This document shows positions 17,501 to 33,369 of a stretch of 64,000 nucleotides of DNA, in pieces; position 1 is the first letter of the stretch, and each line of letters begins with the position of its first letter. A program made the position numbers and the translations under genes. Origin of the DNA: Calothrix sp. NIES-4105 (lineage in GTDB: Bacteria > Cyanobacteriota > Cyanobacteriia > Cyanobacteriales > Nostocaceae); contig NZ_AP018291.1 of the NCBI RefSeq assembly GCF_002368415.1, positions 248,001-312,000 of the forward strand, given 5' to 3'. Below the pieces are notes generated by a model. The model was not told the origin of the DNA, did no database searches, and saw only the letters and a program-made list of their open reading frames with translations.

Positions 17501-19727
17501 TTACACGAGGGTCTTGTTGATTGAGTACGTATTGGAGTATTTCTATACTAGATAAATAGCCAGTACCATATTCAACGGTATCCCTTGAATATCCACTAAC
17601 CACCCAGCACGCTATGTCCTTTGTATCGACTCTGCGTACTTTTGCCCTACTGACACCCATTACTTCCAAGGCAAACTGTTCGTAGTAATTGCTACTTATC
17701 CACCCGGCGCCTGGTTGTGCTTTGATGTGTTTCTTGAACAGTGTTTCTTGTTTGACGGGCGATAATTTATCCCATTTAATACCGAGTGCTTCGATACAAT
17801 CATACTTAATATCACTTGCCGCATTCGGTAACATCGGTAACGGTAATGATGCTTTCAATGCCTCAACATTACGAGGTAATGAATGTTTGGATGCAATATC
17901 CAATTTCTCGACTATATTACCACTGAGGTATGCTTCTTTTAATTCCCATTTTTCAGTAATAGGGTTGAAGTAAGCAAGACTATCATTTTCAAGTAATTCA
18001 ATTACTTCTGATGTTGAATTATTAAGTAATTGGGCAATATATGATAAATCGAATTTACCTTTATTCGCTAGTGATAGTGAAATAGCATCGTAGATATTGG
18101 ATGCAGTAGTTGGCGCCACGCTATATTCAGCGATGCGCTTGTGGAATATATCAGCGACAGTGGATGATTTTTGTTTTTCAAGTCCCCTTACCAGGTAGTA
18201 ATTTGGGTCACTACCGAGTTTATTAACATTTTTCTTATCGTTTACTTTACCCCATTTATAAATGAAATTTTCATACTCCTGCTTCAATTTTTGCTGAAAT
18301 GGTGTAATATCCTCATGATTTGTTTGTGCGTTTATACATTCAATTGTTGCATTACGCAATCTCCAAAATGATTCGATACGCTCTATCTCAATATTTTTGA
18401 TTTTGACTAAGTTTGAACGTTGACGTTGATAAACCCGCCCGTTATGTAGGCAGAATGTCATTTCTTTGACATGCTGTAGTTCAGGAGGAATGGGAATTAC
18501 ATCATTTTTCAATGTGTCATGAACATAACACTTATCAATTTTAATAGCATCAATGGCGCTTTGGTTATCTCGTCCATCACCGAGTAATGCAAAACCATCA
18601 CCATATAATTGATTTACTGTTGCACTACCGAATAAATGTTGAATGCCTGCATATATTTTGTCTTTTAATTCTGCATGTCTAATACTGCCTGGATTGTCAT
18701 TGATTTGTTTTTGATATTGTAGGTCATGCTTTCTGCCATTGAATTCCTTGTGGTAGTATTCATTAAGATATGCTTCGCTAATTTCACCCTTATCATCAGG
18801 TTGCCAGTTTTGAGGGTCAATGATAACTTTCTTGCTAGTAACCCATATTGGTAATGGTTCATCAACAGCACTTTCAACAGGTTCAATTTTCTGGAATAAT
18901 AGAAAGTCGGTAGTAACCTGTGTGTTCGCTACCTCTTTGAATGCCGTATTGGGCAATCTGAATGCAGTTACTAATTTTAATTCCTTGCTCAAATATTCCC
19001 GAAATCTTTCACTTCCTGGTGCATCAAGAGTATAACTCGACGTTATAATGCCGATTAACCCGCCGATACGTACTAGTTTTGCGAGTTTGGCAAGGAAGTA
19101 ATTATGTATTTTCAGCCCCAGGTGATCAAATTCGGGGTCGCTAATGCCCAAACTACCAAATGGCACATTTGATACAGCCAAGTCGAAATAGTTATGTGGT
19201 AATTGGCAGCGCTCGAATGGCAAGTTATGAATTACCGCGCGTGGATAAAGGTATTGCGCTATCGCGGCGGAGGTGGGGTCAATTTCTACCCCGTATAGTT
19301 CACTTTTTTCGAGATAATGAGGTTTCATTCCCCCGAAGAATAACCCCGTTCCACATGCTGGCTCTAATATCCGACCGTTTTTGAACTCCGTTTTATGGAT
19401 TACATTCCATATAGCTCGAATTATTGCTGGGTCAGTGTAGTGTGCATTGAGCGTCAACGCTGCTGCATCTTTATACCCTGTTTCACCTAATAATTCTTTG
19501 AGTCGAGATTGTGCGTCACGCTCCCATCCTTGTGGGTCGAGTTTGAAAACTGGCGCCAAGCTACCCCATCCACTGAACGATGCAAGGTCTATTAATTGTT
19601 CGCGTGTCGGTTCATTCCCCAATTTTTGTAACTTTTTCAGTGTTAATAGCGCGCGCTCGTTTCTACCCCATCGTTCTTTGGGTGAAGACTTGAGGTTTGA
19701 TTCAATAACAGAAGTGGTGGTATACAT
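14526..19727 (-). CDS. Giant N6-adenine methyltransferase-SNF2-type helicase fusion (DarB-like)
   Basis: 1733 residues. The N-terminal methyltransferase has motif I ILEPACGTGLF (120-130) and motif IV NVPF (187-190), a variant of NPPF. A superfamily 2 helicase follows: Walker A GHEVGFGKSYT near 840, DEIQ near 1004, and motif VI QRNGRGERQGNG near 1345. A coiled-coil region and an acidic Glu/Ser/Asn linker precede the C-terminus. Similar fusions are carried by phages and conjugative elements; P1 DarB is one and protects DNA from type I restriction. The last residues, TKQLSLFDL, form a bacterial sliding-clamp-binding motif. The start is supported by GGGGAG about 5 nt before the ATG and a promoter motif at 19765-19781. 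An antirestriction role is inferred. Confidence 0.85.
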   Translation of the reverse strand: MYTTTSVIESNLKSSPKERWGRNERALLTLKKLQKLGNEPTREQLIDLASFSGWGSLAPVFKLDPQGWERDAQSRLKELLGETGYKDAAALTLNAHYTDPAIIRAIWNVIHKTEFKNGRILEPACGTGLFFGGMKPHYLEKSELYGVEIDPTSAAIAQYLYPRAVIHNLPFERCQLPHNYFDLAVSNVPFGSLGISDPEFDHLGLKIHNYFLAKLAKLVRIGGLIGIITSSYTLDAPGSERFREYLSKELKLVTAFRLPNTAFKEVANTQVTTDFLLFQKIEPVESAVDEPLPIWVTSKKVIIDPQNWQPDDKGEISEAYLNEYYHKEFNGRKHDLQYQKQINDNPGSIRHAELKDKIYAGIQHLFGSATVNQLYGDGFALLGDGRDNQSAIDAIKIDKCYVHDTLKNDVIPIPPELQHVKEMTFCLHNGRVYQRQRSNLVKIKNIEIERIESFWRLRNATIECINAQTNHEDITPFQQKLKQEYENFIYKWGKVNDKKNVNKLGSDPNYYLVRGLEKQKSSTVADIFHKRIAEYSVAPTTASNIYDAISLSLANKGKFDLSYIAQLLNNSTSEVIELLENDSLAYFNPITEKWELKEAYLSGNIVEKLDIASKHSLPRNVEALKASLPLPMLPNAASDIKYDCIEALGIKWDKLSPVKQETLFKKHIKAQPGAGWISSNYYEQFALEVMGVSRAKVRRVDTKDIACWVVSGYSRDTVEYGTGYLSSIEILQYVLNQQDPRVTLYDKDKKFDVKASNKATEEARNKANFLKKAFADWIWVDKKRSIELCIHYNKTVNVYVDRKYDGSYLTFPGMNPLIKLRPWQKDAVARIIQCGTTFVGHEVGFGKSYTLIAAIMECRRLGLAKRPVLVALNGTEQQLFNDWKKLYPTANVLILNNLNADNRKYFTAALASADFDGVILTHSQYFSLALSTEYQLEFLNREKAILQDYLEEVKRDDRGAAKQIQRTLRSIEHRIYKVVNSIRKDGHIDFERLLIDWLGIDEIQMFKNLSVITKMGYIKGILTNWSQRATDNYMKMLHVSGNALNSIIKNGGKTVGATGTIINNSLTEVFTWLRTFASRELDKIGASAFDKFMSYFGVVSSGAEISASGKYKVVTRFKSFCNLQPLRAICKQFLDIVNRHTHPEVAKQLEIPEAKYIDVVVQPSEAQLKFLSDAYQRATDIEDRKVEPDEDNYLWLTTDFNKCALTARLLGETSEALGSKLHECAWNVWQIWKASHHTKRTQLIFCDYSTPKPDKYNVYDYMKLLLTALGIPASQIEFIHNWDADSRPKLYKLIEQGKVRIVLGSTSKLGTGCNVHRRGIEFMHHLDAPWRPSDDKQRNGRGERQGNGELLGVSNKVKTITIIRYITERLDALRWQALATKQKFIEDFFNGDEDEIENCEEVVYSFNVVKSLAIGNPLLVEEANLRSGLNILLSQLNTHEQQQFSLSYETRKWQLILDNLISKVELVKEDISSIGGIPSILERTQIGDAISNNRKLVLAAKKQLTTLLGEYRNFSVYGEYDVYKKDVEIKLHLNAIYDFDTKINGIKVPLKVSNILNSIDELITLLPDYLIQLSREIDSVRVEIVRCQSLVNKQFDGMEQIDTVQHRLADIEAILKEHDSAVSSGAESNEESEELNESNESNDTVDDDKGEFWELRDKSVGATTLSQEVVNMLLKRPVEGVEWLTEYIQRNQSTSVAETIKVEAKVSTTPSTPTPALTPLTKTSTKQLSLFDL

Positions 19728-20133: not shown

Positions 20134-20952
20134 CTACATAGGAATAAGTAGGTTATCCCAAACAGCGTGCGCCGAAACTTTATCGATAAACTGTACGGCA
20201 GCAGTGCATTTGCCAAGTAGGTGGGGGTCTTTAAGGCTGGTCCACCATGTTACACCGAGTAGTTGCAGTAGTAGTAGCTGCGATGAGTGGTCGAGTTTAC
20301 TGATTTCATTGCTGTGGTTCAATGCCTCGCACGTTGTTTTGGGAGGGGTGGATAGGTTTTCAATAAATGGTGATAGCTCATCCCATACTTCGAGTATTTG
20401 TAGTGCCCTACCCGGACTACCATATGAAGCACTAATTATTGCCTCATGTACATTTGAATGACCGTTATTTTCCAGTACTGTAACTACTTCATCATTGGAT
20501 AACTGTTTAAAATCGATACGATGACACCTGCTATTGATGGTGGGTAGCATTTCATGATTCGATACAATTATTATCGTGATATATGATGGTGGTTCTTCGA
20601 GTGTTTTCAATATTGCATTGCTGCATTTTTCTGATAACCCACCTTCTGCATTAATGATTACTACCTTCCGAGTTCCAATAGCTGGTTTGGTGGCACACCA
20701 TGCGGATGCTTCCCGCATTTGTTCAATTTTGATGGTAGGTTTATTAGTAGTGGCACCTTCTGGTAGGACTACCAATAATTCGTACTTCGACTTGATTAGA
20801 TATTGAGCGAATAGTAAGGTCGCTTTGAATTTACCGATACCCGATATCCCAGTAAATAGGTATGCGGGTGCAATATTACCAGCATTGATAATATTTTGTA
20901 GCATTGTTATAGCTACTTCGTTCCCGATTATCTCATTAAATAATGTGTTCAT
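20134..20952 (-). CDS. holB: DNA polymerase III delta-prime-like clamp-loader subunit
   Basis: 272 residues. An AAA+ clamp-loader fold: IIGNEVAITMLQNIINAGNIAPAYLFTG, then a P-loop GISGIGKF, KVVIINAEGGLSEKCSNAILKTLEEPP and NSRCHRIDF with the SRC arginine motif. The P-loop ends in GKF rather than GKS/T and the DExx box is replaced by NAEG, so ATP hydrolysis is doubtful, as in typical delta-prime. It lacks a recognisable zinc module, and at 272 residues is shorter than chromosomal HolB. It overlaps the delta gene by 17 bp, consistent with coupled synthesis of two clamp-loader subunits. Confidence 0.85.
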   Translation of the reverse strand: MNTLFNEIIGNEVAITMLQNIINAGNIAPAYLFTGISGIGKFKATLLFAQYLIKSKYELLVVLPEGATTNKPTIKIEQMREASAWCATKPAIGTRKVVIINAEGGLSEKCSNAILKTLEEPPSYITIIIVSNHEMLPTINSRCHRIDFKQLSNDEVVTVLENNGHSNVHEAIISASYGSPGRALQILEVWDELSPFIENLSTPPKTTCEALNHSNEISKLDHSSQLLLLQLLGVTWWTSLKDPHLLGKCTAAVQFIDKVSAHAVWDNLLIPM

Positions 20953-21895
20953 TGCTTAACTTAGTCATTTCTACTATACGGGTGATTAGTGAATTATTTG
21001 AGGCGCCTGTTTTTAACTCATATTCGAGTTTAACGAGTACCGCTAATATATTACGCAGTCGTAATAATGAACAACTGCGAACTTCCTGTTTGAGGAAATA
21101 AATCCTCGAAGGGTTATAAACATTCGCAATTGATGCTATTTCTACATCACTTTTATTTTCGATGATTCCCGCTTTGACGGCAACCCATGTACGGAAACAT
21201 GTTTGTAATGCAGCGGTAATTTGCAGTGGGTGTGTATTTTCCAGTTGATTCAATTTACTATATGCGTCCTCTGTTTTACCATCAAGGCAGTACTTAGCTA
21301 ACTGAATCGAATTGCTGTAATTATTACTAACTAGTTCTTGCAAAGCCTCAATTTCTACATTATCTTTATCTCCTACGTATAATTTTATTTTAGTCAATTC
21401 TGAGTTGATGAGTTCGCTGTTGGTGCCGATATTTTCAACCAAATATTGAATTGCTTCATTTGAAAGGTTGAATCCTTTCATAATAGCAGCGTCTTTTATA
21501 TAGGTCGATAATTCGCGTGTATTCCATTCAGAAATACGTAGGAACTCTTGCATTTTCCCATATTTGAGTAATTCCTTTACTACTACTGTGTTACTAGCAG
21601 GTTTTTTGCTAGTAGTAATGAGTAGTATGTTGCCAGAAGGTGCCATTTCTAATTTACCTTTGATAATCTTTTTAGTATTGTCAGCATCTTTGAATAAGCA
21701 GTCATTTGACACATGAATTATTTTACTATCACCCATGAGTGGAGGTGTAAGCAATTCATTGACCACTGCTTGAGCATTACTATCATCGGGAAGTAGATGA
21801 TAGTTTAGCACTTCGTTATCCAATGTGCTTTTGATTTCCTCAACACGTCGCTTCATGTTGAATTGGTCATCACCGTATAATATGTATACTCGCAT
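20936..21895 (-). CDS. holA: DNA polymerase III delta-like clamp-loader subunit
   Basis: 319 residues. The opening VYILYGDDQFNMKRRVEEI, then LLTPPLMGDSKIIHV, and the later ELIN-SELTKIKLYVGD and SIQLAKYCLDG-K-EDAY follow the HolA pattern. These correspond to the degenerate AAA+ domain, the lid and the C-terminal collar helices. HolA opens the sliding clamp. It is followed by delta-prime with a 17-bp overlap and preceded by a promoter-like motif at 21934-21949. Length is close to chromosomal HolA (about 330-340). Confidence 0.85.
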   Translation of the reverse strand: MRVYILYGDDQFNMKRRVEEIKSTLDNEVLNYHLLPDDSNAQAVVNELLTPPLMGDSKIIHVSNDCLFKDADNTKKIIKGKLEMAPSGNILLITTSKKPASNTVVVKELLKYGKMQEFLRISEWNTRELSTYIKDAAIMKGFNLSNEAIQYLVENIGTNSELINSELTKIKLYVGDKDNVEIEALQELVSNNYSNSIQLAKYCLDGKTEDAYSKLNQLENTHPLQITAALQTCFRTWVAVKAGIIENKSDVEIASIANVYNPSRIYFLKQEVRSCSLLRLRNILAVLVKLEYELKTGASNNSLITRIVEMTKLSNEHII

Positions 21896-21933
21896 ATTTT
21901 TGTAATAAATGTTAATTATATATGTGTAATACC

Positions 21934-21949
21934 AGCTATTAGCATTGAA
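21934..21949 (-). promoter_or_regulatory. Promoter-like motif upstream of holA-holB
   Basis: Minus strand: TTCAATGCTAATAGCT, then TTACACATATATAATT 15 nt after TTCAAT. It lies about 40-55 bp from the holA start. Confidence 0.45.
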
Positions 21950-21971
21950 TTAATAGCTAGTATGTTATGGG

Positions 21972-22649
21972 TCATTCATTCCTGAGTTTTCTTAATTGTT
22001 CAATAGTATCGATGTAGTTGAGTGCCGCTTCGATACCACCATCTTTGAATGCAATACTTGTTAATATGAAATCCGATTCGGTGGCGCCTTTCTCGTTTAA
22101 CATATTGATAAGCACAGTTGGCAATTCAATATTTCCAACCTTTGAAGTTTGGGATAGTTCCTGTTCGTTAATTCCCTTTTCTTGTAGTTTGCGAGATGGA
22201 AACGTTAACTTCTGTTGGTTCGTTTCGAGGGACTTAGCATTAATTCGACATATCTTGTTCCTATTTTTTGGGCGCCGAATTCGGTGTTTAACTATCACAG
22301 GGTTTTCGGGGAATTTTATTTCATAATGTTGGGGGATATCGAGTGATAGTTGTCCATATAAGTTATAATTAGTGTACCTTTGTGGGGGTAAAATATCACA
22401 TTTATATTCACCACTTTTAATTGGATGTCCGCTGAAGCGCAGTACGACTTTAATTGTATGTTTAATTTTAGTAGCAATATACTTCTCATCTGGTAATAGT
22501 ATTCTGTTTGCTTCTTCTGTCCATTCAATTTCAATAGTGCGTGTACCAGCAAGAATTGTGAATACTCGATAATGATGATGCGGACGTGTGGCGAGGAAAT
22601 TATTAAGCCACTCCCTTTGCTTTTTATTGAGTTGATTTTCTTTTCCCAT
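21972..22649 (-). CDS. Hypothetical protein co-transcribed with the family B polymerase
   Basis: 225 residues, family not recognised. The N-terminus is helical and basic (NQLNKKQREWLNNFLATRPHHH), the middle is beta-rich, a basic stretch follows (KHRIRRPKNRNKICR), and the C-terminal helices contain LPTVLINMLNEKGA. It begins 1 bp after the polymerase stop, so the two are almost certainly one transcript. The segment NQQKLTF could be a weak clamp-binding-like sequence, but I do not rely on it. A replication accessory role is suggested by position only. Confidence 0.55.
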   Translation of the reverse strand: MGKENQLNKKQREWLNNFLATRPHHHYRVFTILAGTRTIEIEWTEEANRILLPDEKYIATKIKHTIKVVLRFSGHPIKSGEYKCDILPPQRYTNYNLYGQLSLDIPQHYEIKFPENPVIVKHRIRRPKNRNKICRINAKSLETNQQKLTFPSRKLQEKGINEQELSQTSKVGNIELPTVLINMLNEKGATESDFILTSIAFKDGGIEAALNYIDTIEQLRKLRNE

Positions 22650-22650
22650 A

Positions 22651-24459
22651 TTAAAATAAACTTAGCTGTTGTACTGACCCACCGAGTAATTTTTCTGGTG
22701 CAATGATTTGAAGCAATTCTGCGCGTTTTGCATTGATTAACTGGGTGTAATAGGATTTGGAGTAATTACCAGAGGTGCAGATACCATTGACTCCGGTGTA
22801 GTAGGTAACGAATTGCTTGGGTTTACCGATTTTGAGTAATTCAATTTCGCTCTCTCTGATACGGCGCCGAATTACGAGTTTGTCGATAGGGTAGTTACCT
22901 GATTGAATTTGTGAAGAAAGCGATTTGTGGTATTCCTCAGCAGCTTCATAACTTTCAAGGAAATGAGTAAGGTATTGAATTGGGTGTTCGTTCTCTATTT
23001 TCGATTTGGCTCGACTACTCCATGAACCTTTTTTGACTACTTTATCTTCGGGTGTCCAGAGTAGATAATTTTTACACCCGTTTCCCGGTACATACATAGC
23101 TTTAGCAAAGTTTTCGAGTTTAATAGTGATACCCTGCGGCAGCTTTGCGATTAACTGTTGATGTACCGAGTGCGGGTCATCGTGCATGAAGTAGATACCA
23201 TCAGTATCGTATTCAATGATTGTTGCATCCATTTCTTGAATGATTTGGAGCATGAATTTGAGTAGGCGCCGGGAGTACGCACAAACGAGTGCAGCTGCTA
23301 CCATGTCATTGAAAGCGAGTTTGCCAGTACCGAGTAGACCATAGTAGCAATTGAGTATATTTTTTAACGCTTTTTGTCGATTACTGAGTTCGGGTATAGC
23401 TATAATGCGTTCGCGTTCACCCCTGAAATATTCAATCATTGCGAGTGATATTTCATCGATGTCGTACTTTGAGTGAAGTCCATAATTCCAAATTATCCAG
23501 GAGTGCATACCACTGATATCCACCTGGGCAATAGGTTTTGTGTGGTATAACCCAGTCAAGGCGCCTGCTAACCCACCTTGAAACTGCAATTTTTGTTCTG
23601 GTTCAGGATATTTTTTACAGGCTAGTTGTAACCCTCTACTCCATTTGCTGCCTGCACCCAGTAGGGTTAACATATCCAATCCTGTGTTGGGTGCTATATA
23701 TTTTTCATAATAGAAATCTGGTACTATTTTCGATGCGACAAGTGCTGTGTCTTCGAGGTCGAGTCGAAGGTATTTCTCAATTTGTGCCCACCCGTTTGAC
23801 CCCTCACCTTCATTCCAGCATCGAAGAATTTCTTCATATTCGAGTTCTAACCTTCGCTCATGCCGTAACCCCATATCGATGGGTACTTGTTTTAGTGATT
23901 TGCTATCACTAAGCTGGCGCCGATTACTATCCCATCGCAGTACACATATGTATACATCAACGTGTTCAATATTGTGTTGTATGGATATGGGGTGTACCTC
24001 TAATGGTTCATACCCGTATGGTATTGCGGTGGATACCCTGATTTTTCTACCACCAATTTTGAAAGGGTGTTTGATGCCATATATTTCGCATCGCTTTATA
24101 ATAAATGGTAGGTCAAAACTGATTCCATTATAAGTGAATAATATTTCTGGTTTTGTTTTACTAATAAGTGAGATGAAACCTTTTAATATTTTGCGCTCAT
24201 CTAGATGCATCAGTATGTTGACATTTTTTGACTGGTCACGGGTGCCAATTGCGTATATTCTATCAGCGACAGGGTTGAGTCCGCTCGTTTCGATATCGAC
24301 TATTGTGGTATCTAATTCAACGTAATCTTTGATATTATGGTGGGGTCGCCACGGTTTATTAGATTTTCGCTTATACTTCCAGAATATATCTAGTTTTTCT
24401 TCATCAACAATAAGCTTATTATTGACTTTACGAACTAAGTTTCGATGGTTGTATGTCAT
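22651..24459 (-). CDS. polB: Family B DNA polymerase with 3'-5' exonuclease and clamp-binding tail
   Basis: 602 residues. Exonuclease motifs: ExoI VDIETSG (D55, E57), ExoII YNGISFD (N111, D116), ExoIII YLRLD (Y230, D234). Polymerase motifs: A VDISGMHSWII (D314), B K366-x3-NCYYG, C EYDTDG (D418, D420). All catalytic Asp residues are present, so proofreading and synthesis are both likely. It is short for a family B enzyme (E. coli Pol II is 783). The C-terminus SVQQLSLF is a consensus bacterial beta-clamp-binding motif, matching the clamp encoded at 25827-27146. No terminal-protein (protein-priming) insertion is evident by eye. A promoter-like motif lies at 24496-24513. Confidence 0.9.
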   Translation of the reverse strand: MTYNHRNLVRKVNNKLIVDEEKLDIFWKYKRKSNKPWRPHHNIKDYVELDTTIVDIETSGLNPVADRIYAIGTRDQSKNVNILMHLDERKILKGFISLISKTKPEILFTYNGISFDLPFIIKRCEIYGIKHPFKIGGRKIRVSTAIPYGYEPLEVHPISIQHNIEHVDVYICVLRWDSNRRQLSDSKSLKQVPIDMGLRHERRLELEYEEILRCWNEGEGSNGWAQIEKYLRLDLEDTALVASKIVPDFYYEKYIAPNTGLDMLTLLGAGSKWSRGLQLACKKYPEPEQKLQFQGGLAGALTGLYHTKPIAQVDISGMHSWIIWNYGLHSKYDIDEISLAMIEYFRGERERIIAIPELSNRQKALKNILNCYYGLLGTGKLAFNDMVAAALVCAYSRRLLKFMLQIIQEMDATIIEYDTDGIYFMHDDPHSVHQQLIAKLPQGITIKLENFAKAMYVPGNGCKNYLLWTPEDKVVKKGSWSSRAKSKIENEHPIQYLTHFLESYEAAEEYHKSLSSQIQSGNYPIDKLVIRRRIRESEIELLKIGKPKQFVTYYTGVNGICTSGNYSKSYYTQLINAKRAELLQIIAPEKLLGGSVQQLSLF

Positions 24460-24495
24460 AATATATTTGATATATTTTTTTAATATACATTTGAT

Positions 24496-24513
24496 GTAGT
24501 AATAAAAATGAAA
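24496..24513 (-). promoter_or_regulatory. Promoter-like motif upstream of the family B polymerase
   Basis: Minus strand: TTTCATTTTTATTACTAC followed by an AT-rich segment with TGTATATTAAA. A weaker match than its neighbours (TTCATT for TTCAAT). Confidence 0.35.
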
Positions 24514-24545
24514 CTAATCAAGTAATAAATACTTGATTAATATTT

Positions 24546-25754
24546 TTAAACTAAATCGATTATTTGTTCGCGAATAACGTAATATATCCAGGCAGGCGCC
24601 TTTTTACCGTTAATACGTTCAAGATTTTGCCACGCAGCGTTGATATCATGGTTTGGTAATTGTTGTTTACCCCAAGCAATTGCGTCTGCTTCGGATTTCC
24701 AAGCGGTGTAAATAGGTACAAACTTTTCATCCAAGTCCATACGGGCAACTTCCATTAAAATCGCCTGTATCCAAATATCTGAAAATTCACCTTTGGTAAG
24801 GTTTTCTTTGTTGCTGAGTGTTGTAATAATGCGTTGCAATTCTTTATTATCCCACACTTGTTTTATAGGGTGGTCGGTGTAGGTAATGTATTTAAGGCAA
24901 GTGCTTACCATTGTAGTAAGAATTTTGTGAGGGCTTTTCCCACGCGCAAATAATGAGTTAATTATCAACTTTGCTTCTTTGTAATTAGCGGTTGCGAGAT
25001 GAACTAGTATTTTGTAAGCAGTTGATTCGTTAACGATTCCACAAACTTCCTCGATAACCTCTTTGGTAATTGGTTTACCCAATGTAAATAGTTGGTCAAG
25101 TAGCGTTTGTGAATCTCGCATATGACCGTTTTTCGCTTCCGATATTGCTATTGCTGCATCTAAGTCCAAGTCAAACTGCTCAAGCCGCGCAATATCTAAA
25201 AGTGCTGATGCAATAGCATCTACGCTTATTAGTTTAAATTCAAATGTTTGCGCGCGCGATTTAATTGTTGGAGGAACTTTTGATTCCTCAGTTGTGCAAA
25301 AGACGAATGTTACATTTTCAGGTGGTTGCTCGGTTGTCTTGAGTAGTGATTGCCATGCTTGGTTAGATAAAGAATGGCATTCATCAATAATGATTACTTT
25401 CCATGCCCCTGCAATAGGAGCAAACTGAGTGCGTTCGATTACATCGCGCATAGGGTCTACCCCGGAATTTGATGCAGCATCAATTTCTATTACATCAAGA
25501 TGGCTACTGTTATTGATGTTAATACATGAGTTACATTTGTTACACGGTACTATCTCGGACTGACAATTTATCATTTTGGCGAGTATTCGAGCAGTCGAAG
25601 TTTTGCCTGTACCTTTGGCGCCTGTGAATAAATAAACTGGTGCAATGCGTTGTTGAGTAACTGCATTTTGTAGAGTTGTAGTAGTGGTTTCTTGTCCTAT
25701 TACATCTGATAGGGTTTGGGGACGATATTTGAGATGAATTGGTTCGTATGGCAT
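24546..25754 (-). CDS. dnaX: DNA polymerase III gamma/tau-like clamp-loader ATPase
   Basis: 402 residues. HLKYRPQTLSDVIGQE, P-loop GAKGTGKTS, zinc module CNKCNSC, DECHSLSNQAW (Walker B) and SRAQTFEF (sensor/arginine) are all canonical for DnaX. It is the only clamp-loader subunit here with an intact P-loop and Walker B, so it is the motor of the loader with the delta and delta-prime proteins. It is shorter than many chromosomal DnaX proteins and has no obvious long tau extension. The last 100 residues are distinct. It lies between the polymerase and clamp genes. Confidence 0.9.
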   Translation of the reverse strand: MPYEPIHLKYRPQTLSDVIGQETTTTTLQNAVTQQRIAPVYLFTGAKGTGKTSTARILAKMINCQSEIVPCNKCNSCININNSSHLDVIEIDAASNSGVDPMRDVIERTQFAPIAGAWKVIIIDECHSLSNQAWQSLLKTTEQPPENVTFVFCTTEESKVPPTIKSRAQTFEFKLISVDAIASALLDIARLEQFDLDLDAAIAISEAKNGHMRDSQTLLDQLFTLGKPITKEVIEEVCGIVNESTAYKILVHLATANYKEAKLIINSLFARGKSPHKILTTMVSTCLKYITYTDHPIKQVWDNKELQRIITTLSNKENLTKGEFSDIWIQAILMEVARMDLDEKFVPIYTAWKSEADAIAWGKQQLPNHDINAAWQNLERINGKKAPAWIYYVIREQIIDLV

Positions 25755-25826
25755 ATGTAATGTACTTCGCGATTATGATGTGTAGCTATTTATTTCCCCC
25801 TTTTGACATAAGGGGGAGAAGGGATA

Positions 25827-27146
25827 TCAGGCAGCGACTTTCAATTTGCGACCTTTTGTTGAAGTATTTTTCTTTGTACTAATCTTTGTTTTTGGTGCGG
25901 GAGTGGTGTTTTCTGGAAGAGTGTCGTTATCATCGGACGCTGGTGCAGTTTCTTCTGTCGCTGCGGGTGTTTTAGCATCAGTAGTGAAACTGCTTCGCCT
26001 AATTTGTAATGGCATTACTAGTGCAGTTTGTTCTAGTAACCCACCAATAGGACATATTACAATTGGTGTAGTATGAGTATTACATTTGATTACAATTTCA
26101 TCAGTATCAATAGAGTTTATAGCCTGCGTCAAATAATCTATATTGAATCCAATGCTGATATCTTCTGATGTTTCTGTTTTTGGTTTAATGCTGATTGAGT
26201 CGTATGCTTCTCCATAGTCGGATGATTCAGTAGATACTATAGCATTACAATTATTAACACTAAAACTTACTAAAACAGATTTGTCTTTTTCATGAGCAAG
26301 GTTTTCTACACGTTTGATTGTTGCTTGAAAAGCTTTTCTTTCAACTGTAAATTCATAGATGAATTTTTTAGGAATTATGCTTTCAATAGCTGGGTAGGTT
26401 CCATCTAATAATCGAGATATTATTTTGATTTCCGGCATATTAATCTCTACAATTTTGCTAAATACATTAATCAAGCAATCGTTATTTTCAGCATTTCTTT
26501 GTAATACTTTTAGAATTGATGTAAGTATTTTTGCAGGTATTGTAAAGTTTAGTTGATTTTCATCTTCATCATTATTTTTATCTAATGACATGCAAATGCG
26601 CCCAACTCTGTGACCATCAGTTGTTGTTGTGTATAGCTTATCCCCTGTAATATTGAAATTAGTACCAGTAAGTACCATCTTTGTTTCATCACTGGCGGCG
26701 CCGTATAGTACTTTACTAATAGCCTTTTCAAATTTTAAAGCTGATAGTTTTAGTGTACCAATAGGGTCTGTGTCTTTGATAGAGTCTTCGATTTGAGGGA
26801 ATTCATCTAGATTGTTGTTGACTGCTAGTCGGCAAAGTCCGCTTTCGTATGTGATTGTTAGGTATTGCTCATCAGAGGAAAGTGTTAGTTCGCCGTTGAG
26901 AGTTAGTACTGTATCCTTGAGCTTTTTACCAATTACGGCAACACAACCTGATTCTTCTACATCAGCCTCAATTATTTGATTAATACTGAAAGATGCATCA
27001 GTACTTTTTAATGTTATTTTATTTTCTTCTTCGGATGCCTCTACGATTATACATCCAGTGATGGGGGTGCATGGTTTGCTAGAAATAGCTAAAACTGCTG
27101 ATTCTATGGCGCCGCTTAGTAAGGCTTGATTTATTTGTACCTTCAT
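25827..27146 (-). CDS. dnaN: DNA polymerase III beta sliding clamp with a C-terminal extension
   Basis: 439 residues from the ATG at 27146, where the family sequence begins (MKVQINQALLSGAIESAVLAI). The ORF is open to 27227 but that part has no clamp similarity. Three clamp domains are recognisable: SKPCTPITGCIIVEA, LYTTTTDGHRVG, DGTYPAIESIIPK, and the terminal ALVMPLQIRR, equivalent to the usual VVMPMRL end. Beyond it is an extra tail of about 60 residues rich in Thr, Pro, Ala and Lys that clamps normally lack. Two proteins in this window end in clamp-binding motifs, suggesting this clamp is a hub. It follows the 27236-28240 gene by about 90 bp. Confidence 0.9.
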   Translation of the reverse strand: MKVQINQALLSGAIESAVLAISSKPCTPITGCIIVEASEEENKITLKSTDASFSINQIIEADVEESGCVAVIGKKLKDTVLTLNGELTLSSDEQYLTITYESGLCRLAVNNNLDEFPQIEDSIKDTDPIGTLKLSALKFEKAISKVLYGAASDETKMVLTGTNFNITGDKLYTTTTDGHRVGRICMSLDKNNDEDENQLNFTIPAKILTSILKVLQRNAENNDCLINVFSKIVEINMPEIKIISRLLDGTYPAIESIIPKKFIYEFTVERKAFQATIKRVENLAHEKDKSVLVSFSVNNCNAIVSTESSDYGEAYDSISIKPKTETSEDISIGFNIDYLTQAINSIDTDEIVIKCNTHTTPIVICPIGGLLEQTALVMPLQIRRSSFTTDAKTPAATEETAPASDDNDTLPENTTPAPKTKISTKKNTSTKGRKLKVAA

Positions 27147-27235
27147 ATTTGTGGTAGTGTTATAGGTGGTTAGAGGGTCTGCATTGTCAGTAACTGTGTT
27201 TGGATGATGTCGCACAATTACTGACAAGTTAATTT

Positions 27236-28240
27236 TTAGTAGGGAGGGTTGTCGTTAACTTCGATGTCGTCATCTACTAAAGTTGCGGGTAGCAATAGCT
27301 TTCTTTCGACTCTGCCTTCTACTACAAGTCGATTATGTTCCTCCACAATGGGCGCCGCTTTTCCAATACTCATAGTGAGGTCAGGGTTTGTTGCAACAAG
27401 AGTGGCATACTCTTTACTCTTCCATTCGCAGAAGAAATCTAAGAAATTGCTGCCATCTTGTTTTGGTGTTTCATATTTTTCAACGATTGCCACCCACGAA
27501 CGGTTTGTAGCTTTCGGCTCAGTTTTAGGTTCGTGGGACGGGGCAAATGTGGGATTAAATACGCACATTCTATGAAACTCATCGTCTTTGGGGCACCTAT
27601 CTTCGCCATAAAAGTTTGCAAATGCAGTATCAATATCCGAGTAGAAAGCTTCTAATGCTATGTCAAACTTCACTAGCTGTACACCTTTCATGGTTATAGC
27701 AATAGGAGTGTCATGAAGGTTGTTATTGTTTTCATCTAGCACGAACGCAAAATAAAACCTTCTAAGAACATGCGTTGCCTTATTTTTGTTGTAAAATTCT
27801 CTACCATCATTTGTTTCAAGTATCATGTTGGCCAGAGTACCAGATGTTGTACCATCATCCAGGTCTTTTCGTGCTTCAGGGAAAGTGTAACTTTTTTGTA
27901 TAATGTTTAACCTTGGTGACTGGAGCAATATACCTGTTTCTTCTTCCCCATTAGAAAATGTGTGCTTATGCTTTGCTTCCTCACCTTTCCAGTTAATACG
28001 GGTAAGCGCAGCTTCTTTTATAAACAATCCTACTTTTGTTGGGTCTTGTATGTTTATGATTTGGGTTATCGGCGCCGAACTAATAGGTTTGTTATGTTTA
28101 GGGTCTAGGTATTTACTTGCTGCTTTCCTCCTTTCTTCTTCAGAACGGCGTTTACCTGTAATCCCTGATACAGTATTAGGTACATCAGTTTCAGTTTCAG
28201 TTTCAGAATTGAATGGAACTTTACCGTTTTTGATAGCCAT
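27236..28240 (-). CDS. Hypothetical replication-module protein, possibly single-strand-binding
   Basis: 334 residues. There is an N-terminal disordered region (KRRSEEERRKAASKYLDPKHNK) and a central domain including RLNIIQKSYTFPEARKD and HVLRRFYFAFVLDENNNNLHD. The very acidic C-terminal tail LVDDDIEVNDNPPY recalls the DDDIPF tip of bacterial SSB, though the final Phe is Tyr. It sits immediately upstream of the clamp gene. An SSB-like role is an inference from the tail and the neighbourhood; no OB fold was verified. I have a faint memory of a cyanobacterial DUF of this type but cannot name it with confidence. Promoter motif at 28291-28309. Confidence 0.55.
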   Translation of the reverse strand: MAIKNGKVPFNSETETETDVPNTVSGITGKRRSEEERRKAASKYLDPKHNKPISSAPITQIINIQDPTKVGLFIKEAALTRINWKGEEAKHKHTFSNGEEETGILLQSPRLNIIQKSYTFPEARKDLDDGTTSGTLANMILETNDGREFYNKNKATHVLRRFYFAFVLDENNNNLHDTPIAITMKGVQLVKFDIALEAFYSDIDTAFANFYGEDRCPKDDEFHRMCVFNPTFAPSHEPKTEPKATNRSWVAIVEKYETPKQDGSNFLDFFCEWKSKEYATLVATNPDLTMSIGKAAPIVEEHNRLVVEGRVERKLLLPATLVDDDIEVNDNPPY

Positions 28241-28290
28241 AATCTAGGCGTTTTTGTGCTATGTTTACGCATTGATTACGCATAGCGATT

Positions 28291-28309
28291 AAGTCATAAA
28301 TATTGAAAA
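28291..28309 (-). promoter_or_regulatory. Promoter-like motif upstream of the clamp-region transcript
   Basis: Minus strand: TTTTCAATATTTATGACTT, then GCTATGCGTAATC about 17 nt after TTCAAT. It lies about 50-70 bp before the 28240 start and could drive the SSB-like and clamp genes. Confidence 0.4.
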
Positions 28310-28344
28310 ATATAACGTTGTCTCAAGACAACAATTATATTTGA

Positions 28345-28578
28345 TTAGCTAGCTTTAATTTCACTTAACATTTTTTGTAAGTTCTGGATGTAGTTTTCCA
28401 ATAACTTGACAGTACGCTTAGAGAATTTTAGACTAACTGATTTATCTCGACCATCATATACTGCTATAGTTTGACGGATATTGCTACCATAAACAGTTAC
28501 CATACAACCTGAATGTGGCTCAAATATATATGAGGTGTAACTATTCCAAGTTGATTTTTTACTTTTACTGTGTGACAT
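28345..28578 (-). CDS. Small hypothetical protein
   Basis: 77 residues, unrecognised. A beta-like first half (YIFEPHSGCMVTVYGSNI) is followed by a C-terminal helix with heptad-like leucines (FSKRTVKLLENYIQNLQKML). It overlaps the upstream gene by 14 bp, a pattern of tight packing typical of the replication region. Confidence 0.5.
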   Translation of the reverse strand: MSHSKSKKSTWNSYTSYIFEPHSGCMVTVYGSNIRQTIAVYDGRDKSVSLKFSKRTVKLLENYIQNLQKMLSEIKAS

Positions 28579-28951
28579 TTTTGTCTCCTATTTTTAAGCT
28601 TATGTAGATTATAAACTGATTAATGCTTGTAATAAGTTTTTTGATTTCACCGATTAATGCATCTTCTAGCAACCAAGTTGGGCATTTCCATACTTTTGCC
28701 TCCCAGCGTGTGCCAAGTCTTTGAGATTTACGTACTTTGCATTTTTCACAGCATTTATGTTTGAAAAGCCATTCTTCAAACTGTAGTGCTTTTTCCTTTG
28801 AGTTAAACCCAAAGTATGTAGTAATTCGTTTTCCTTCAGGGTTTGTAATGGTAGCAGCGCGTGTACCATACATGTTGATGCTCCAACCTTCTGCATCAAT
28901 TTTTTCTTGATAAGTTGGTTTGATTTCTAATTTACTTACTGTGACATTCAT
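28565..28951 (-). CDS. Small hypothetical protein with a possible zinc site
   Basis: 128 residues, unrecognised. CCEKC near residue 67 plus a later Cys (WKCPTW) could bind zinc. The ending (LIGEIKKLITSINQFIIYISLKIG) is an amphipathic helix. It overlaps both neighbours (14 bp downstream, 4 bp ATGA upstream), so it is co-translated with them. Confidence 0.5.
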   Translation of the reverse strand: MNVTVSKLEIKPTYQEKIDAEGWSINMYGTRAATITNPEGKRITTYFGFNSKEKALQFEEWLFKHKCCEKCKVRKSQRLGTRWEAKVWKCPTWLLEDALIGEIKKLITSINQFIIYISLKIGDKNVTQ

Positions 28952-29601
28952 AATGATATTTCTGGTATTGCGTCAAAATCTTCTTGCACTGATTTGTCTT
29001 GCAGCCATGCTGTGTAGTAAAATTGATTTTCTACTGCTGTGGCATCAGTAGTTGGTTGATAATTTGTAAAATTGACGATGGCGCCAATTTTTTCTAAGTT
29101 TACTTGGTGTTGTTTAGCATCATACCAAAACTGGCAAGTTTCTTTGCTATCCGGGAATAGGTAAAGTAAAGATATGTTTTCGCATTCTATGGTGAAATTT
29201 TCACGTAGCAGAAATAGCCTTAACTTTGTTTTCCAGCTATTTTCTAGCCATTCAAGATTTTGAGCTTTTGGTATACTCCAATTAAAAGCTGTTACACTGT
29301 TATCGTTGATGACGATGTAGTCATAATTCTCAACTAAGTAGACATTATCATTAAACTGATATGATAAATCAGTGCTGTAGTATTTAGTACTTTCAATATT
29401 AGTGTACATTGAAATAAATTCTACCCATTCTTTAATTGGGTGATTGTATGCAAATTTATCAATTGACATTCCAAGAGATAATTGTTGCATTACAGTATTA
29501 AATTGAAAATGGATATCACTAATATCGTTGTTAGGCATTACTTGCCCAATGTGTTTTGGCGCCTTTTGTTTAAGAGCATCACTGTTGAAATACTGGTTCA
29601 T
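28948..29601 (-). CDS. Hypothetical protein
   Basis: 217 residues, unrecognised. Tyr- and Asn-rich with alternating beta-like segments (NVYLVENYDYIVINDNSVTAFNW). No signal peptide, membrane segment or cysteine motif. The first gene of a three-gene overlapping unit ending at 28345, and 55 bp downstream of the primase-like gene. An imperfect palindrome containing ATACGTTCATG lies just upstream of the start. Confidence 0.5.
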   Translation of the reverse strand: MNQYFNSDALKQKAPKHIGQVMPNNDISDIHFQFNTVMQQLSLGMSIDKFAYNHPIKEWVEFISMYTNIESTKYYSTDLSYQFNDNVYLVENYDYIVINDNSVTAFNWSIPKAQNLEWLENSWKTKLRLFLLRENFTIECENISLLYLFPDSKETCQFWYDAKQHQVNLEKIGAIVNFTNYQPTTDATAVENQFYYTAWLQDKSVQEDFDAIPEISL

Positions 29602-29656
29602 ACGTTCACACTTATTTTTAGCATGAACGTATAACGTAGTTCATATAATTGATTAG

Positions 29657-30604
29657 CTATGAATTATTCGCTAAGTAATATAAACTACGAATTGTACACC
29701 TTAAATTATTAAAAGTACTCCATTTATACGCACATAAACCAGGTGTGTATTTATGCGACATTTGACTCCACTCTTCCCATTGGGGAAGTAAACTAGTGCT
29801 AACAGATTTTAATGCCATACCTGTTTTTATCCAAGTATTGTAATCATCCGCGTACTTGGGATGTATTATGTCTAGTAGAATGGAAGCAATTTTGATTTCC
29901 TCTTGTGTTCCCTCATGAGTTACGCATTCAAAACGTGTACTTAGGATTTTGTAACGTTTTTGTTGATGGCGGGTCATCTGTTCTATGACCCAACGTGGCG
30001 CCTCTTCGACGGGTATAATCTTTGGGCTACCTTCCACCCATTTATACTGCTTACCTCTTGGGTGTAAGGAGGGTGGGAGTATGGAATTTAGGTTTGTACC
30101 GCGCAATTCAAGATGACTACCGTTACCAGCGTCAATAACCCTTGACTTTAGGTATGGATACATAGACAGGTCAGCTTTATAAATATACTGCTGCCGATTC
30201 TTTCTTCCACTTGTGAATGATACTGTTGGTGGAAGATATCTCTCTGCTAGTTTTTTTACCTCAAACTCGTCTATTTTGGCTAAAATATTTTGTTTTCCTT
30301 CGTTGATTTCGATAACTTTTCGGTATGCTTCTATACCATCACAGTCAATCGCTAGCAAAAACTCTTTACTATTGGCACCACATTTCAAAGCAAATCCAGT
30401 CGGTGTAGCATCCTGCCATCCTTTTTTTGTTTCTATGCGTAGTATTCCATTTTGGCGAATAAGCGTTTCTCCTAATTGATTAGCTGAGTAGGGGAGGCTT
30501 TGCCACCCTTTCCCTAACGCTACTTTCATTCGTGTAGGTACAATCAACCAATGTGGAGGGATTTCGGATAATCCCTCGATTAGTGCTTTAACTTGTGCTG
30601 ACAT
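29657..30604 (-). CDS. Archaeo-eukaryotic primase superfamily (PrimPol-like) protein
   Basis: 315 residues. The AEP/prim-pol pattern is visible: AIDCDG (D87, D89), SGRKNRQQYIY (normally SG+xG+H, 132-142), HLELRG with an acidic residue (E166), and ILPPSLHPRGKQYKW, the LPPS.H..G..Y.W motif of bifunctional primase-polymerase domains. Residues about 225-305 (EEIKIASILLDIIHPKYADDYNTWIKTGMALKS) resemble the PriCT-2-type C-terminal domain. No helicase domain is attached. It would supply primers for the family B polymerase. It lies 65 bp downstream of the DUF1998 helicase gene. Family is fairly sure; primer synthesis is inferred. Confidence 0.75.
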   Translation of the reverse strand: MSAQVKALIEGLSEIPPHWLIVPTRMKVALGKGWQSLPYSANQLGETLIRQNGILRIETKKGWQDATPTGFALKCGANSKEFLLAIDCDGIEAYRKVIEINEGKQNILAKIDEFEVKKLAERYLPPTVSFTSGRKNRQQYIYKADLSMYPYLKSRVIDAGNGSHLELRGTNLNSILPPSLHPRGKQYKWVEGSPKIIPVEEAPRWVIEQMTRHQQKRYKILSTRFECVTHEGTQEEIKIASILLDIIHPKYADDYNTWIKTGMALKSVSTSLLPQWEEWSQMSHKYTPGLCAYKWSTFNNLRCTIRSLYYLANNS

Positions 30605-30669: not shown

Positions 30670-33369
30670 TCACTGCAATAGTTTCACGCCCAAATCTTTG
30701 AATAGATGTTCATTGTCATCCGGGCATTGATGCATTGTAGTACATCTGTGACAGCCGTGTTTACAATCACAGTTGTTAACTAAAGTTCGGGCTTTTTGGA
30801 CAACTTGCTCCCAATAATCTAAGAGTGTATTACAGGCGCCTGTGCCATTAGCTATGGTGTCAAAGAAATACCCTATTATTGAATTTTGGTTTTGGGTTAA
30901 ACTAAATTCTATATCCTTGCTGTTTGTTTCGTGCTTGACTAGAGGTAGCGCTAGCATCAGTTGATGGGCGAGTGTATGAATAACAAGCAACATAGGTTCG
31001 CAAGTAAATACCTTAGCTAACTCTCTACTCATTGTGCGTTTTCCCAAATGAATATCTTCTTGAATTGCTTGCCTTGTATTTAATACAACACCCTTGAAAT
31101 AGCTTGTAGCATTACCTGTTACCGATACTTCGATTGTGGGTGTTTCGTACTCTACGGTAATTGGGTTTTGGTAGTTTACATCCTCGATTAGTTCATCAAC
31201 TTCGATGTTCCTTAGCAAATTACTACATGCAGGGCACATTTTGTATCCTGTATAAATAGCTTTGTGGTGGTTGCGACATTTTTTGCGGTTACAAGTCCAA
31301 CGTAACTCTTTATTACGTAGTTCATACCCACTCACCGATTCTTTAAGAGAACCCCAAATAGGATTGAGAATTAAAAATGAATCTTCGGTTAATTTTACAT
31401 GTATTCTTTCACCTTTTCCTGCCTTAATGTTACTAATTTTTAATTCTGCTTTACATACTGTGTAAAGGGTTGTATTTTTGCTGATTGGCTTTAATATACA
31501 ATTACCTTCCTCTAAATCTAGACTTATTGCACGATATTTTACAGGATGCCCGTCAAAGTCTTGTGCCGGGTAGATGGCGCCTTGATATACTTCCCTAATT
31601 GCAATACTTTTTGAGCTTGACTCAAATTCCTCGCCAGTTTCTTGATTTATGTATTCAATATTGCCTCCTTCACCACGCATTTTAATATTGGCGTGGTAGT
31701 AACCTAGATTTGAATTAGCTTCAATGCGGTTATTGAATGATGGAAGAAGTTTTTCTTCATCTAGTAACTTTTGCATGATTTCTAATCCAAATGCACCGAA
31801 ATATTCTTCAATTAATTCAACTGTTGGTTTGCTTTCAACAGCCGCAGCAATTAGGTGGTTGGTAACTATAGATTCATAATTTTGATTGAAGCTGATAATT
31901 TCAGCTTTATCTGTAAATAGCTTATCAGGATTATCCGCATAGTACCCATCAATCACACTTTGCTGGGACGGGATAAATACTATCAACCCTTCTCCATGTC
32001 TTCCCGCACGCCCCATTTGCTGACGAGTACTAAGTATTGTTCCTGGGTACTTGCAGATGATGGTAGCAGAAATATTACTAATATCTACACCAGCCTCTAG
32101 GGCACTGGTTGACACAATACCTTTGATTTTTTCCTTTAACAAGTCGCTAATTATTTCAGAGCGTTGTATTGGCTTCATACTCCCATAAAAACAAGAGCAT
32201 TTATTTGCTAAATCGCTTCTATCTCTAGCAATAAGTATTTGACGAGCTTTTGCAGCAATAGCTTTACTTTGCGCGCGGCTAATAGCAAAGCAGATAGTTG
32301 TTACATCAAGCTCAATCAATTTTGCTAGACAGATAGCAGCATCTTGAGTAGATGTTTTACTATTACGTAAGCATACAAATTGTTTCTCAAATGATTTGGC
32401 ACCACTCGATTCGATAATTGCTAAATCATCCTGCGAACGATTTGAAATCAAAGAAGCAATTCTTTTAGGATTTCCAATAGTCGCGGAAGCAAAGATATAT
32501 CTAATATTGTGCGGGTTACCTCCTAGCATATCTATTTTTAATTGCATCCTTTTGTTCAGCCATGCGAAATGGGCGCCAAAAGTTCCATTATAAAGGTGCA
32601 TTTCGTCTATAATCACTAACTTTATATTTAACAACGTCTGAATTAATTGATGGTTGTTTCCTTTACTGGCTTCTAAGTCGTGATTCCAAGCATCAGGTGT
32701 TGCTAATATAATTGTGGGAGTATTGGCATACTGCTGTAATCTTTCTCTACGAGGTATATCGCCATTAATATTCAAAACTTTGGGGCGAATATTTTCTGGA
32801 ATATGCTGAACAATTTCTTTAATTTTACGTGATTGGTCAAGGGCTAAACCCTTTAAATTAAAGAATATAAGTACCGATTTGTTCTCCATGCACTCCTGTA
32901 ATGCAGGAATCAAAAAAGCTAGTGATTTTCCACTACTAGTTTGTGTCAATAGTGCAATATTCCTATTTTGCTTATATGCTTCCCATGCTTCAATTTGATG
33001 CGAATATAATTGAGTAATTCCTGTTTGAGCTAGCGCATTTCTGATTATAGAATTAATATTGCTAGGTATTGGACTAAATGTGCCTTTTACACCATCAATT
33101 TTGGATATATGTGACAGCAAGCTATGTTTATTTAGGAACGCTGTAAAAAATCCATACTTCACTTCATTGGTGATAGGCGCCTTACCCATTGGCATTAAAT
33201 CGCCACTTTCAACTAGTTCGTGCCAACCATCAATCACTTCTTCAGTTGTACCTATTTGAACTATCAATTTTTTCGCTATAATAGCTTTGATTAAGCCAAC
33301 TCCTAATGTATTGATATACACTGCTTGTGAGGTTTCCAGCCATTTGGGCAAGCTTAAATTTGATTGCAT
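30670..33369 (-). CDS. DEAD/DEAH helicase with DUF1998 C-terminal domain (MrfA/YprA-like)
   Basis: 899 residues. A superfamily 2 helicase core: LYSHQIEAWEAYKQNRNIALLTQTSSGKS (Q motif and Walker A, about 122-149), DEMH near 256, FASAT, STSALEAGVDI and QQMGRAGRHGEG (motif VI). The C-terminal part has CNRKKCRNHHK...CPAC and the four-Cys signature CDCKHGCHRC of DUF1998 near 870. MrfA proteins unwind DNA in mitomycin-type repair. Similar proteins occur in defence and plasmid loci. It heads the replication region behind a promoter motif (33411-33429) with GGAGG in the leader. The role on this element could be repair or replication restart. Confidence 0.85.
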   Translation of the reverse strand: MQSNLSLPKWLETSQAVYINTLGVGLIKAIIAKKLIVQIGTTEEVIDGWHELVESGDLMPMGKAPITNEVKYGFFTAFLNKHSLLSHISKIDGVKGTFSPIPSNINSIIRNALAQTGITQLYSHQIEAWEAYKQNRNIALLTQTSSGKSLAFLIPALQECMENKSVLIFFNLKGLALDQSRKIKEIVQHIPENIRPKVLNINGDIPRRERLQQYANTPTIILATPDAWNHDLEASKGNNHQLIQTLLNIKLVIIDEMHLYNGTFGAHFAWLNKRMQLKIDMLGGNPHNIRYIFASATIGNPKRIASLISNRSQDDLAIIESSGAKSFEKQFVCLRNSKTSTQDAAICLAKLIELDVTTICFAISRAQSKAIAAKARQILIARDRSDLANKCSCFYGSMKPIQRSEIISDLLKEKIKGIVSTSALEAGVDISNISATIICKYPGTILSTRQQMGRAGRHGEGLIVFIPSQQSVIDGYYADNPDKLFTDKAEIISFNQNYESIVTNHLIAAAVESKPTVELIEEYFGAFGLEIMQKLLDEEKLLPSFNNRIEANSNLGYYHANIKMRGEGGNIEYINQETGEEFESSSKSIAIREVYQGAIYPAQDFDGHPVKYRAISLDLEEGNCILKPISKNTTLYTVCKAELKISNIKAGKGERIHVKLTEDSFLILNPIWGSLKESVSGYELRNKELRWTCNRKKCRNHHKAIYTGYKMCPACSNLLRNIEVDELIEDVNYQNPITVEYETPTIEVSVTGNATSYFKGVVLNTRQAIQEDIHLGKRTMSRELAKVFTCEPMLLVIHTLAHQLMLALPLVKHETNSKDIEFSLTQNQNSIIGYFFDTIANGTGACNTLLDYWEQVVQKARTLVNNCDCKHGCHRCTTMHQCPDDNEHLFKDLGVKLLQ

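Follow-up and report, generated by a model that had tools for sequence, protein, structure and literature searches.

Introduction

Replication of bacterial chromosomes is commonly held to be tied to family C DNA polymerases. Genes for family B polymerases (PolB) were described in 2016 on three cyanobacterial plasmids and in the phages A-1 and N-1 (Chenard et al., PMC4916379), and a red-algal plasmid POLBc has relatives on cyanobacterial plasmids (PMC4814812). A 2020 survey described a bacterial PolB group, G3, as an EpsilonN-like clade with a glutamate in motif C, placed Nostoc and Salinibacter phage PolBs in it and found it closer to the catalytic half of eukaryotic Pol epsilon than to E. coli Pol II (Kazlauskas et al., PMC7544198; here and below, the cited papers are drawn on in excerpt). 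Here we analyse a PolB encoded in a 64,000-nucleotide stretch of Calothrix sp. NIES-4105 (contig NZ_AP018291.1, hereafter C2, positions 248001-312000; "the window"), together with a bacterial sliding clamp, a clamp loader and a primase. PolB on plasmids and group G3 were already known; what is new is the link between this PolB, a clamp and clamp loader encoded on the plasmid, and a clamp-binding motif. We found no open-licence paper whose excerpts make this link.

In our tree, the PolBs of A-1 and N-1 and the plasmid PolBs of PMC4916379 belong to the same lineage as the window PolB, and two plasmids of that paper are among our loci: A. variabilis plasmid C is L048, and pP742402 is L023. The paper also names pCC7120beta of Nostoc PCC 7120. 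The words "clamp" and "dnaX" do not occur in its main text, where clamp, loader and C-terminal motif are left unlinked. The window PolB has the motif C glutamate of G3 and is related to Nostoc and Salinibacter phage PolBs, which the survey assigns to that group; the excerpts of PMC7544198 contain no link of G3 to a bacterial clamp or to plasmids. In the T4-type phage replisome, as here, a mobile element encodes a family B polymerase with its own clamp and loader; the T4-type clamp and loader resemble those of archaea and eukaryotes (PMC7544198), whereas those found here belong to the bacterial beta, DnaX, delta and delta-prime families.

E. coli Pol II is also a family B polymerase, and its C-terminus, QLGLF, is like the QLxLF end of the window PolB. 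It is a chromosomal repair enzyme that uses the beta clamp. Unlike the polB gene of the window, the Pol II gene (783 aa product) has no clamp or loader genes adjoining it, and the two proteins share only short local similarity (best segment, 29% over 69 aa). A previous inspection of the window from its letters alone (the sequence-only reading) had started from the view that bacterial clamps serve family C polymerases, which is overstated if taken as exclusive, as the C-terminus of Pol II illustrates.

PolB retains its catalytic residues

The window PolB (602 aa, with a proofreading exonuclease domain; 22651..24459, on the minus strand, as are all window features given here) passed the Pfam cut-off for the exonuclease domain (PF03104, 48.1 bits; cut-off, 23) and failed that for the polymerase domain (PF00136, 17.6 bits; cut-off, 23), and it reached no NCBIfam cut-off in the profile search. 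In phmmer it matched structures of family B polymerases (best E 3e-17), and a Foldseek search with its structure model placed family B polymerases first (best E 4.7e-22, 9N polymerase; query-normalised TM-scores of 0.41-0.50 among the matches listed). The mean pLDDT of the model was 68.2, with palm and thumb good and the exonuclease part poor. We assigned the protein to family B because its motifs and the phmmer and Foldseek matches agree, beside the PF03104 match.

In a 26-row alignment (A2), the acidic residues of Exo I, II and III (D55, E57, D116 and D234), D314 of motif A, K366 and N370 of motif B (K-x3-N), D418-T419-D420 of motif C and K463-N464-Y465 of the KxY motif were all invariant. 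The sequence-only reading had called every exonuclease and polymerase motif intact and had raised the possibility of an inactive site. No sign of inactivation was seen at these positions, and the description stands for the exonuclease and catalytic residues; it does not stand for motif A. The usual family B form of this motif is DxxSLYPS. Relatives have DVSSLYPS, DISSMYPx or DISSMHPW, and the window has the atypical DISGMHSW, with His at the steric-gate position, where the alignment has Tyr in 18 rows and His in eight, the window among them. The gate residue is not catalytic, and the window PolB is still classed as family B. The steric-gate Tyr is conserved in B-family polymerases, and incorporation of dNTPs by Pol delta and Pol epsilon requires it (PMC10639073). 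Because dN/dS against the nearest relative is 0.14, polB appears to be under constraint despite the motif A change.

The motif C glutamate that marks G3 is E416 in the window PolB and is present in 26 of 26 rows of A2; as aligned here, it is missing from the cyanophage PolBs and from that of the Gloeothece plasmid. Through E416 and the phage members named in PMC7544198, the window PolB appears to fit G3. Membership of PolB_SITDG, a group of cyanobacteria and algae, was ruled out: the window has DTD in motif C, and SITDG has a hydrophobic replacement of the first Asp of that motif (PMC7544198).

The atypical motif A, together with broken copies in some relatives, might point to a module in decay, or to a selfish remnant whose PolB is inactive. 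This is very improbable given that the catalytic residues are kept across the 26 rows, that dN/dS is low and that polB is an open frame in Nostocales, Chroococcidiopsis and Gloeothece plasmids.

A putative clamp-binding motif at the PolB C-terminus

Directly before its stop codon, PolB ends in QLSLF (residues 598-602; 22654..22668), a putative clamp-binding peptide. In replicative PolC, the same five residues form the consensus of the motif that binds the clamp (PMC3919608). The pattern QL[ST][LI]F closes the PolB of the window, of all 14 plasmids sampled (see below) and of all 42 contig loci that could be scored, two of the 44 contig PolBs stopping short of the C-terminus. It was also present in 10 of 10 end-reaching PolB pieces from a draw of 386 genomes, of which two, L029 and L028, duplicate the DNA of the contig loci L108 and L122. 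In A2, Q598, L599 and F602 were invariant and L601 nearly so, and residues 589-597 were not conserved. Unlike the plasmid PolBs, none of the five cyanophage relatives has a QLxLF-type end, and neither do the Salinibacter phage and D. grandis PolBs. When the non-overlapping open reading frames (ORFs) of C2 of at least 60 aa were scanned, only two of 416 had the motif within the final 12 residues: those of PolB and of a methyltransferase-helicase protein. These comparisons make the coupling of PolB to the beta clamp well supported at the level of sequence, and the putative C-terminal clamp motif is the new and decisive feature of this PolB. It also renders the central claim directly testable.

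The methyltransferase-helicase protein (1733 aa; 14526..19727), encoded downstream of holB, ends in KQLSLFDL, and its homologue in Calothrix PCC 7716 ends in KQLSLFEL. More generally, a further ORF with a motif tail was found within 3.5 kb beyond holB in 32 of the 44 loci that have holB and at least 1.5 kb of sequence past it. One of the 32 is a Calothrix methyltransferase-helicase; the rest encode proteins of 185-259 aa, four of which were scanned and gave no Pfam family over cut-off. With its QLSLF-type tail, the protein encoded at 13725-14396 of L049, like its equivalents after holB, would be a second likely clamp client.

A bacterial sliding clamp and clamp loader

DnaN, the beta sliding clamp (25827..27146), passed the Pfam cut-offs of PF00712, PF02767 and PF02768 and the NCBIfam cut-off of TIGR00663. 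Its start is most likely the ATG at 27146 (439 aa) rather than the TTG at 27227 (466 aa), because homology begins at residue 28 of the TTG-start form. The protein bears a long basic C-terminal tail. Long tails were present in 11 of 12 aligned plasmid clamps and in none of the five cyanobacterial chromosomal clamps or the E. coli clamp of the alignment. Of 21 positions that we take to line the clamp pocket, the window clamp shares 11 with the E. coli clamp, and the clamp of the host chromosome shares 12 with it.

The clamp-loader ATPase DnaX (402 aa; 24546..25754) matched PF13177 with 132.7 bits (cut-off, 27) and passed TIGR02397. It has Walker A and B motifs, zinc cysteines and SRA (not SRC), and is short, with little sequence outside the clamp-loader domains. 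HolA, the delta subunit (20936..21895), matched PF06144 (44.3 bits; cut-off, 21) and PF21694 (39.8 bits; cut-off, 27) and passed an NCBIfam equivalog. HolB, the delta-prime subunit (20134..20952), carries the SRC motif and matched PF13177 (98.8 bits; cut-off, 27), and was under every NCBIfam cut-off among the matches listed (25 of 60). Judged by motifs and families, the DnaX ATPase motifs together with delta and delta-prime supply what a clamp loader requires. The length of DnaX was ruled out as a divider between plasmids with and without PolB, as the ranges meet: 401-503 aa at PolB loci (42 rows; median, 443.5) and 495, 508 and 515 aa at PolB-less loci.

A primase and a shared gene order

The PrimPol-type primase (315 aa; 29657..30604) scored 66.2 bits with the Prim-Pol family PF09250 (cut-off, 22.8) and 68.4 bits with PriCT_2 (cut-off, 22), which bears out the earlier description of a primase-polymerase-like protein. 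Pfam found no helicase domain in it. All 14 PolB plasmids had a single PrimPol match, and the PolB-less plasmid AP018308 had none.

In the direction of transcription, the gene order is MrfA-type helicase, PrimPol, U217, U128, DUF5895 protein, DnaN, DnaX, PolB, U225, HolA and HolB, where the U numbers denote conserved unknowns. ORF positions and family matches put the genes named in the sequence-only reading on one strand and where it had located them. A single base separates polB from U225, and holA shares 17 bases with holB. The frequency of promoter- and terminator-like sites did not exceed that in shuffled sequence.

The gene set recurs on cyanobacterial plasmids

A tblastn search with PolB returned 24 plasmid records, 17 from cyanobacteria (query cover, 99-100%) and seven from Deinococcus (identity, 24-38%). 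All 17 cyanobacterial records also matched DnaN and DnaX. After three near-duplicates, judged by equal scores, were left out (H6, H10 and H11), the sample comprised 14 plasmids, and in every one of them DnaN, DnaX, PolB, HolA and HolB (the five core genes) were found in the same order. The expectation that the gene set would be present in other cyanobacterial plasmids thus held for these five genes, and because the order is kept across plasmids, a chance neighbourhood was ruled out.

A scan of contigs in species genomes gave 48 loci, four of which were identical to plasmid records and were dropped. All five core genes were present at 31 of the remaining 44 loci, four at two, three at five, two at one and PolB only at five. 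Pairwise distances of the five core genes were correlated across 42 rows (r, 0.85-0.99), and for each pair none of 2000 permutations reached so high a value, a sequence pattern of co-inheritance. The module is nevertheless uncommon, because PolB was matched in only 13 of the 386 cyanobacterial genomes drawn, that of the window included.

Chromosome-sized records also carry the module, whole in L106 (Calothrix brevissima NIES-22) and broken in L118 (Calothrix PCC 7716), suggesting the integration of such plasmids into chromosomes.

The module as a likely plasmid replicase

C2 comprises 394,733 bases of a 12.04-Mb genome in 8 contigs. Its ends do not overlap, so circularity is not demonstrated, and its cumulative GC skew showed no clear origin-terminus pattern. 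The same gene order is present in the nearest plasmid record, that of Calothrix PCC 7716 (384,612 bp, circular), from which we strongly infer that C2, too, is a plasmid. Of the relatives found, Calothrix sp. HK-06 is the nearest (DnaN 94%, PolB 87%). C2 fits a conjugative element, because the window also encodes a TrwB/TraG-type coupling protein and has a TrbI match, the latter below cut-off.

DnaE (PF07733) and PolA each had one match in the genome, on contig C1. DnaN and HolA were matched on both C1 and C2, and a relative of the window PolB on C2 alone. Among family C, family A and PolB-relative polymerases, PolB was the only one on C2 (families X and Y were not searched), which agrees with the earlier statement that no other replicative polymerase was seen. 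A DnaE elsewhere on the replicon had also been considered; none was found on C2, in the 14 PolB plasmids or in AP018308 (0 of 15 plasmid records).

We consider that the plasmid probably encodes a PolB-beta-clamp holoenzyme that copies it, in maintenance, transfer or both. The G3-fitting PolB would bind the plasmid's own DnaN clamp via its C-terminal QLSLF. The plasmid DnaX-HolA-HolB complex would open the clamp and load it at primer ends, with primers supplied by the plasmid PrimPol, and the SSB that C2 encodes at another site may cover the template. Unwinding would be left to host DnaB or another helicase. Such an enzyme would copy the plasmid for its maintenance and/or after conjugative transfer, in less dependence on host DnaE. 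The sequences themselves show the genes and their order, their co-inheritance, the retained catalytic residues, the clamp motif and the lack of DnaE. We infer physical assembly, activity and a replicase rather than a repair role; as the plasmid's replicase, the module is likely but unproven.

Several observations weigh against this interpretation. DnaB-family matches lay on C1 and C3 and none on C2, and none was found in the 15 plasmids (14 with PolB and AP018308), other helicase types not being excluded; no initiator or origin was identified. The module is real and recurrent on plasmids; the self-contained system for which the sequence-only reading had seen a strong candidate is not supported, as the module does not appear to be complete in itself. 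Thirteen of the 44 contig loci are incomplete. Eight of these stretches are shorter than 15 kb. The remaining five, L102, L103, L118, L124 and L126, exceed 20 kb yet lack part of the set, and PolB is broken or partial in L118 (the PCC 7716 chromosome record), L124 and L126. L111 has all five genes in an altered order, with dnaN last. In plasmid C of Trichormus variabilis ATCC 29413 (L048 9025-11730), ISAva7, an insertion sequence (IS) of the IS5 family, splits polB beside dnaN, dnaX, holA and holB that are annotated whole, and polB is likewise IS-split in a plasmid of Trichormus variabilis strain 0441. These two cases show that the loss of an intact polB can be compatible with plasmid persistence. 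The atypical motif A with its His gate and the PolB-less plasmids considered below belong on the same side.

Some of these points would also fit a PolB that acts, like E. coli Pol II, in repair or lesion bypass, with host DnaE copying the plasmid and PolB taking the clamp at damage or stalled forks. Pol II offers the precedent of a family B enzyme with a clamp motif, DnaE is available on C1, an MrfA-type helicase heads the gene run, an IS element splits polB in a sequenced plasmid and the steric-gate Tyr is replaced by His in eight of 26 rows. Against this, kinship to Pol II is remote, and a repair polymerase should need no dedicated clamp, three loader subunits and primase, which co-occur with PolB in 14 of 14 plasmids. 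We regard a repair role as unlikely.

Alternatively, the core function could be a plasmid-specific clamp, with clamp and loader serving host DnaE on the plasmid and PolB as an accessory. The main support comes from PolB-less plasmids. DnaN, DnaX and HolA occur together without PolB in the Aulosira plasmid AP018308, L160 and L162 (L161 and L163 show DnaN only), and 22 of the 60 matches listed, of 113, were cyanobacterial plasmids with DnaX and without a window-type PolB. AP018308, the one PolB-less record examined, had no DnaE, DnaB-family or PrimPol match. The presence of clamp and loader genes on a plasmid is therefore not enough to imply that it has a polymerase of its own. In a second DnaN tree, however, the PolB plasmids fell on one side (90/81) and five PolB-less clamps formed a separate clade (100/100). 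In addition, the three PolB-less loader loci showed no HolB within the stretches examined, one record was without PrimPol, and the 402-aa DnaX of the window leaves little room for a tau-like polymerase-binding tail, although relatives reach 503 aa. We consider it quite unlikely that PolB is a mere accessory.

As a separate observation, L160, L162 and L164 represent a second class of plasmid-type locus, DnaN-DnaX-HolA without a PolB relative.

Ancestry of the module

The DnaN tree grouped all but one of 23 plasmid-type clamps, that of the window included, into one clade of 22 (97/88) beside 18 clamps of the same class taken as chromosomal, and 12 rows from the rest of the phylum and E. coli fell outside. 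The exception was L111, on a long branch; contig rows were taken as plasmids. In the PolB tree, plasmid and cyanophage PolBs were sister groups, each one-sided (99/99). The mixed origin proposed in the sequence-only reading is supported by these trees, whose branches are long and whose sampling, from a single phylum and E. coli, is narrow.

A phage origin of the whole module is disfavoured: in the five cyanophage PolB loci (one stretch of 25.7 kb and four of ~6.6 kb), neither clamp nor loader was matched. A scan of viral contigs, limited by peptide patterns, found no relative.

Synonymous divergence (dS) from the nearest relative was 0.03-0.12 for HolB, DnaN, HolA and the DUF5895 protein and 0.43-0.58 for DnaX, U225 and PolB. 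Because this divergence differs several-fold between adjacent module genes, the comparison of window positions 20134-28240 with L080 suggests recombination inside the module, which runs counter to simple co-inheritance.

We tentatively propose, as a scenario that we hold to be rather doubtful in its entirety, that a conjugative plasmid lineage swapped a family C replicase for PolB on a dedicated beta clamp and loader, so that it copies itself beside a DnaE-copied chromosome; members with a His gate, the window's included, may handle ribonucleotides unusually. If a conserved plasmid PolB does work with a bacterial clamp and loader, it would be a natural test of polymerase-family interchangeability on one clamp and would show how large plasmids win independence from host replication. 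It could also yield an orthogonal replication system in cyanobacteria.

Other genes of the region

The protein that the sequence-only reading had listed as possibly SSB-like (27236..28240) is a DUF5895 protein (PF19247), and its kinship to SSB or OB-fold proteins is unproven. In its structure model (mean pLDDT, 59.5), the top Foldseek matches were SsbA and MCM chains with E values of 0.19 or worse, which are non-significant, and there was no PDB sequence match. The protein ends in NPPY, and PY closes 40 of the 43 rows of homologues, among which three records are counted twice. We take this conserved end (...ELPY/PPY) to be reminiscent of the SSB tail tip. A canonical SSB is encoded elsewhere on C2 (37544-37831).

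U217 (28948..29601) and U128 (28565..28951) have homologues in 23 and 28 of the 48 contig loci, respectively, and no Pfam or PHROG match; a gene homologous to U217 is annotated as a PD-(D/E)XK nuclease in two Chroococcidiopsis plasmids. U225 (21972..22649) has homologues in 35 of the 48 and no Pfam, NCBIfam or PDB match. The MrfA-type DEAD helicase (30670..33369) at the head of the gene run is a possible but unproven fork or repair helicase.

A ubiquitin-like conjugation set, which Pfam did not reveal among 30 window proteins scanned, lies directly upstream of the module in some relatives: genes annotated as ThiF and Mov34/MPN are found there in L054 (1795-4203), L045, L050 and L052, and L054 also encodes a prokaryotic E2 ligase family protein.

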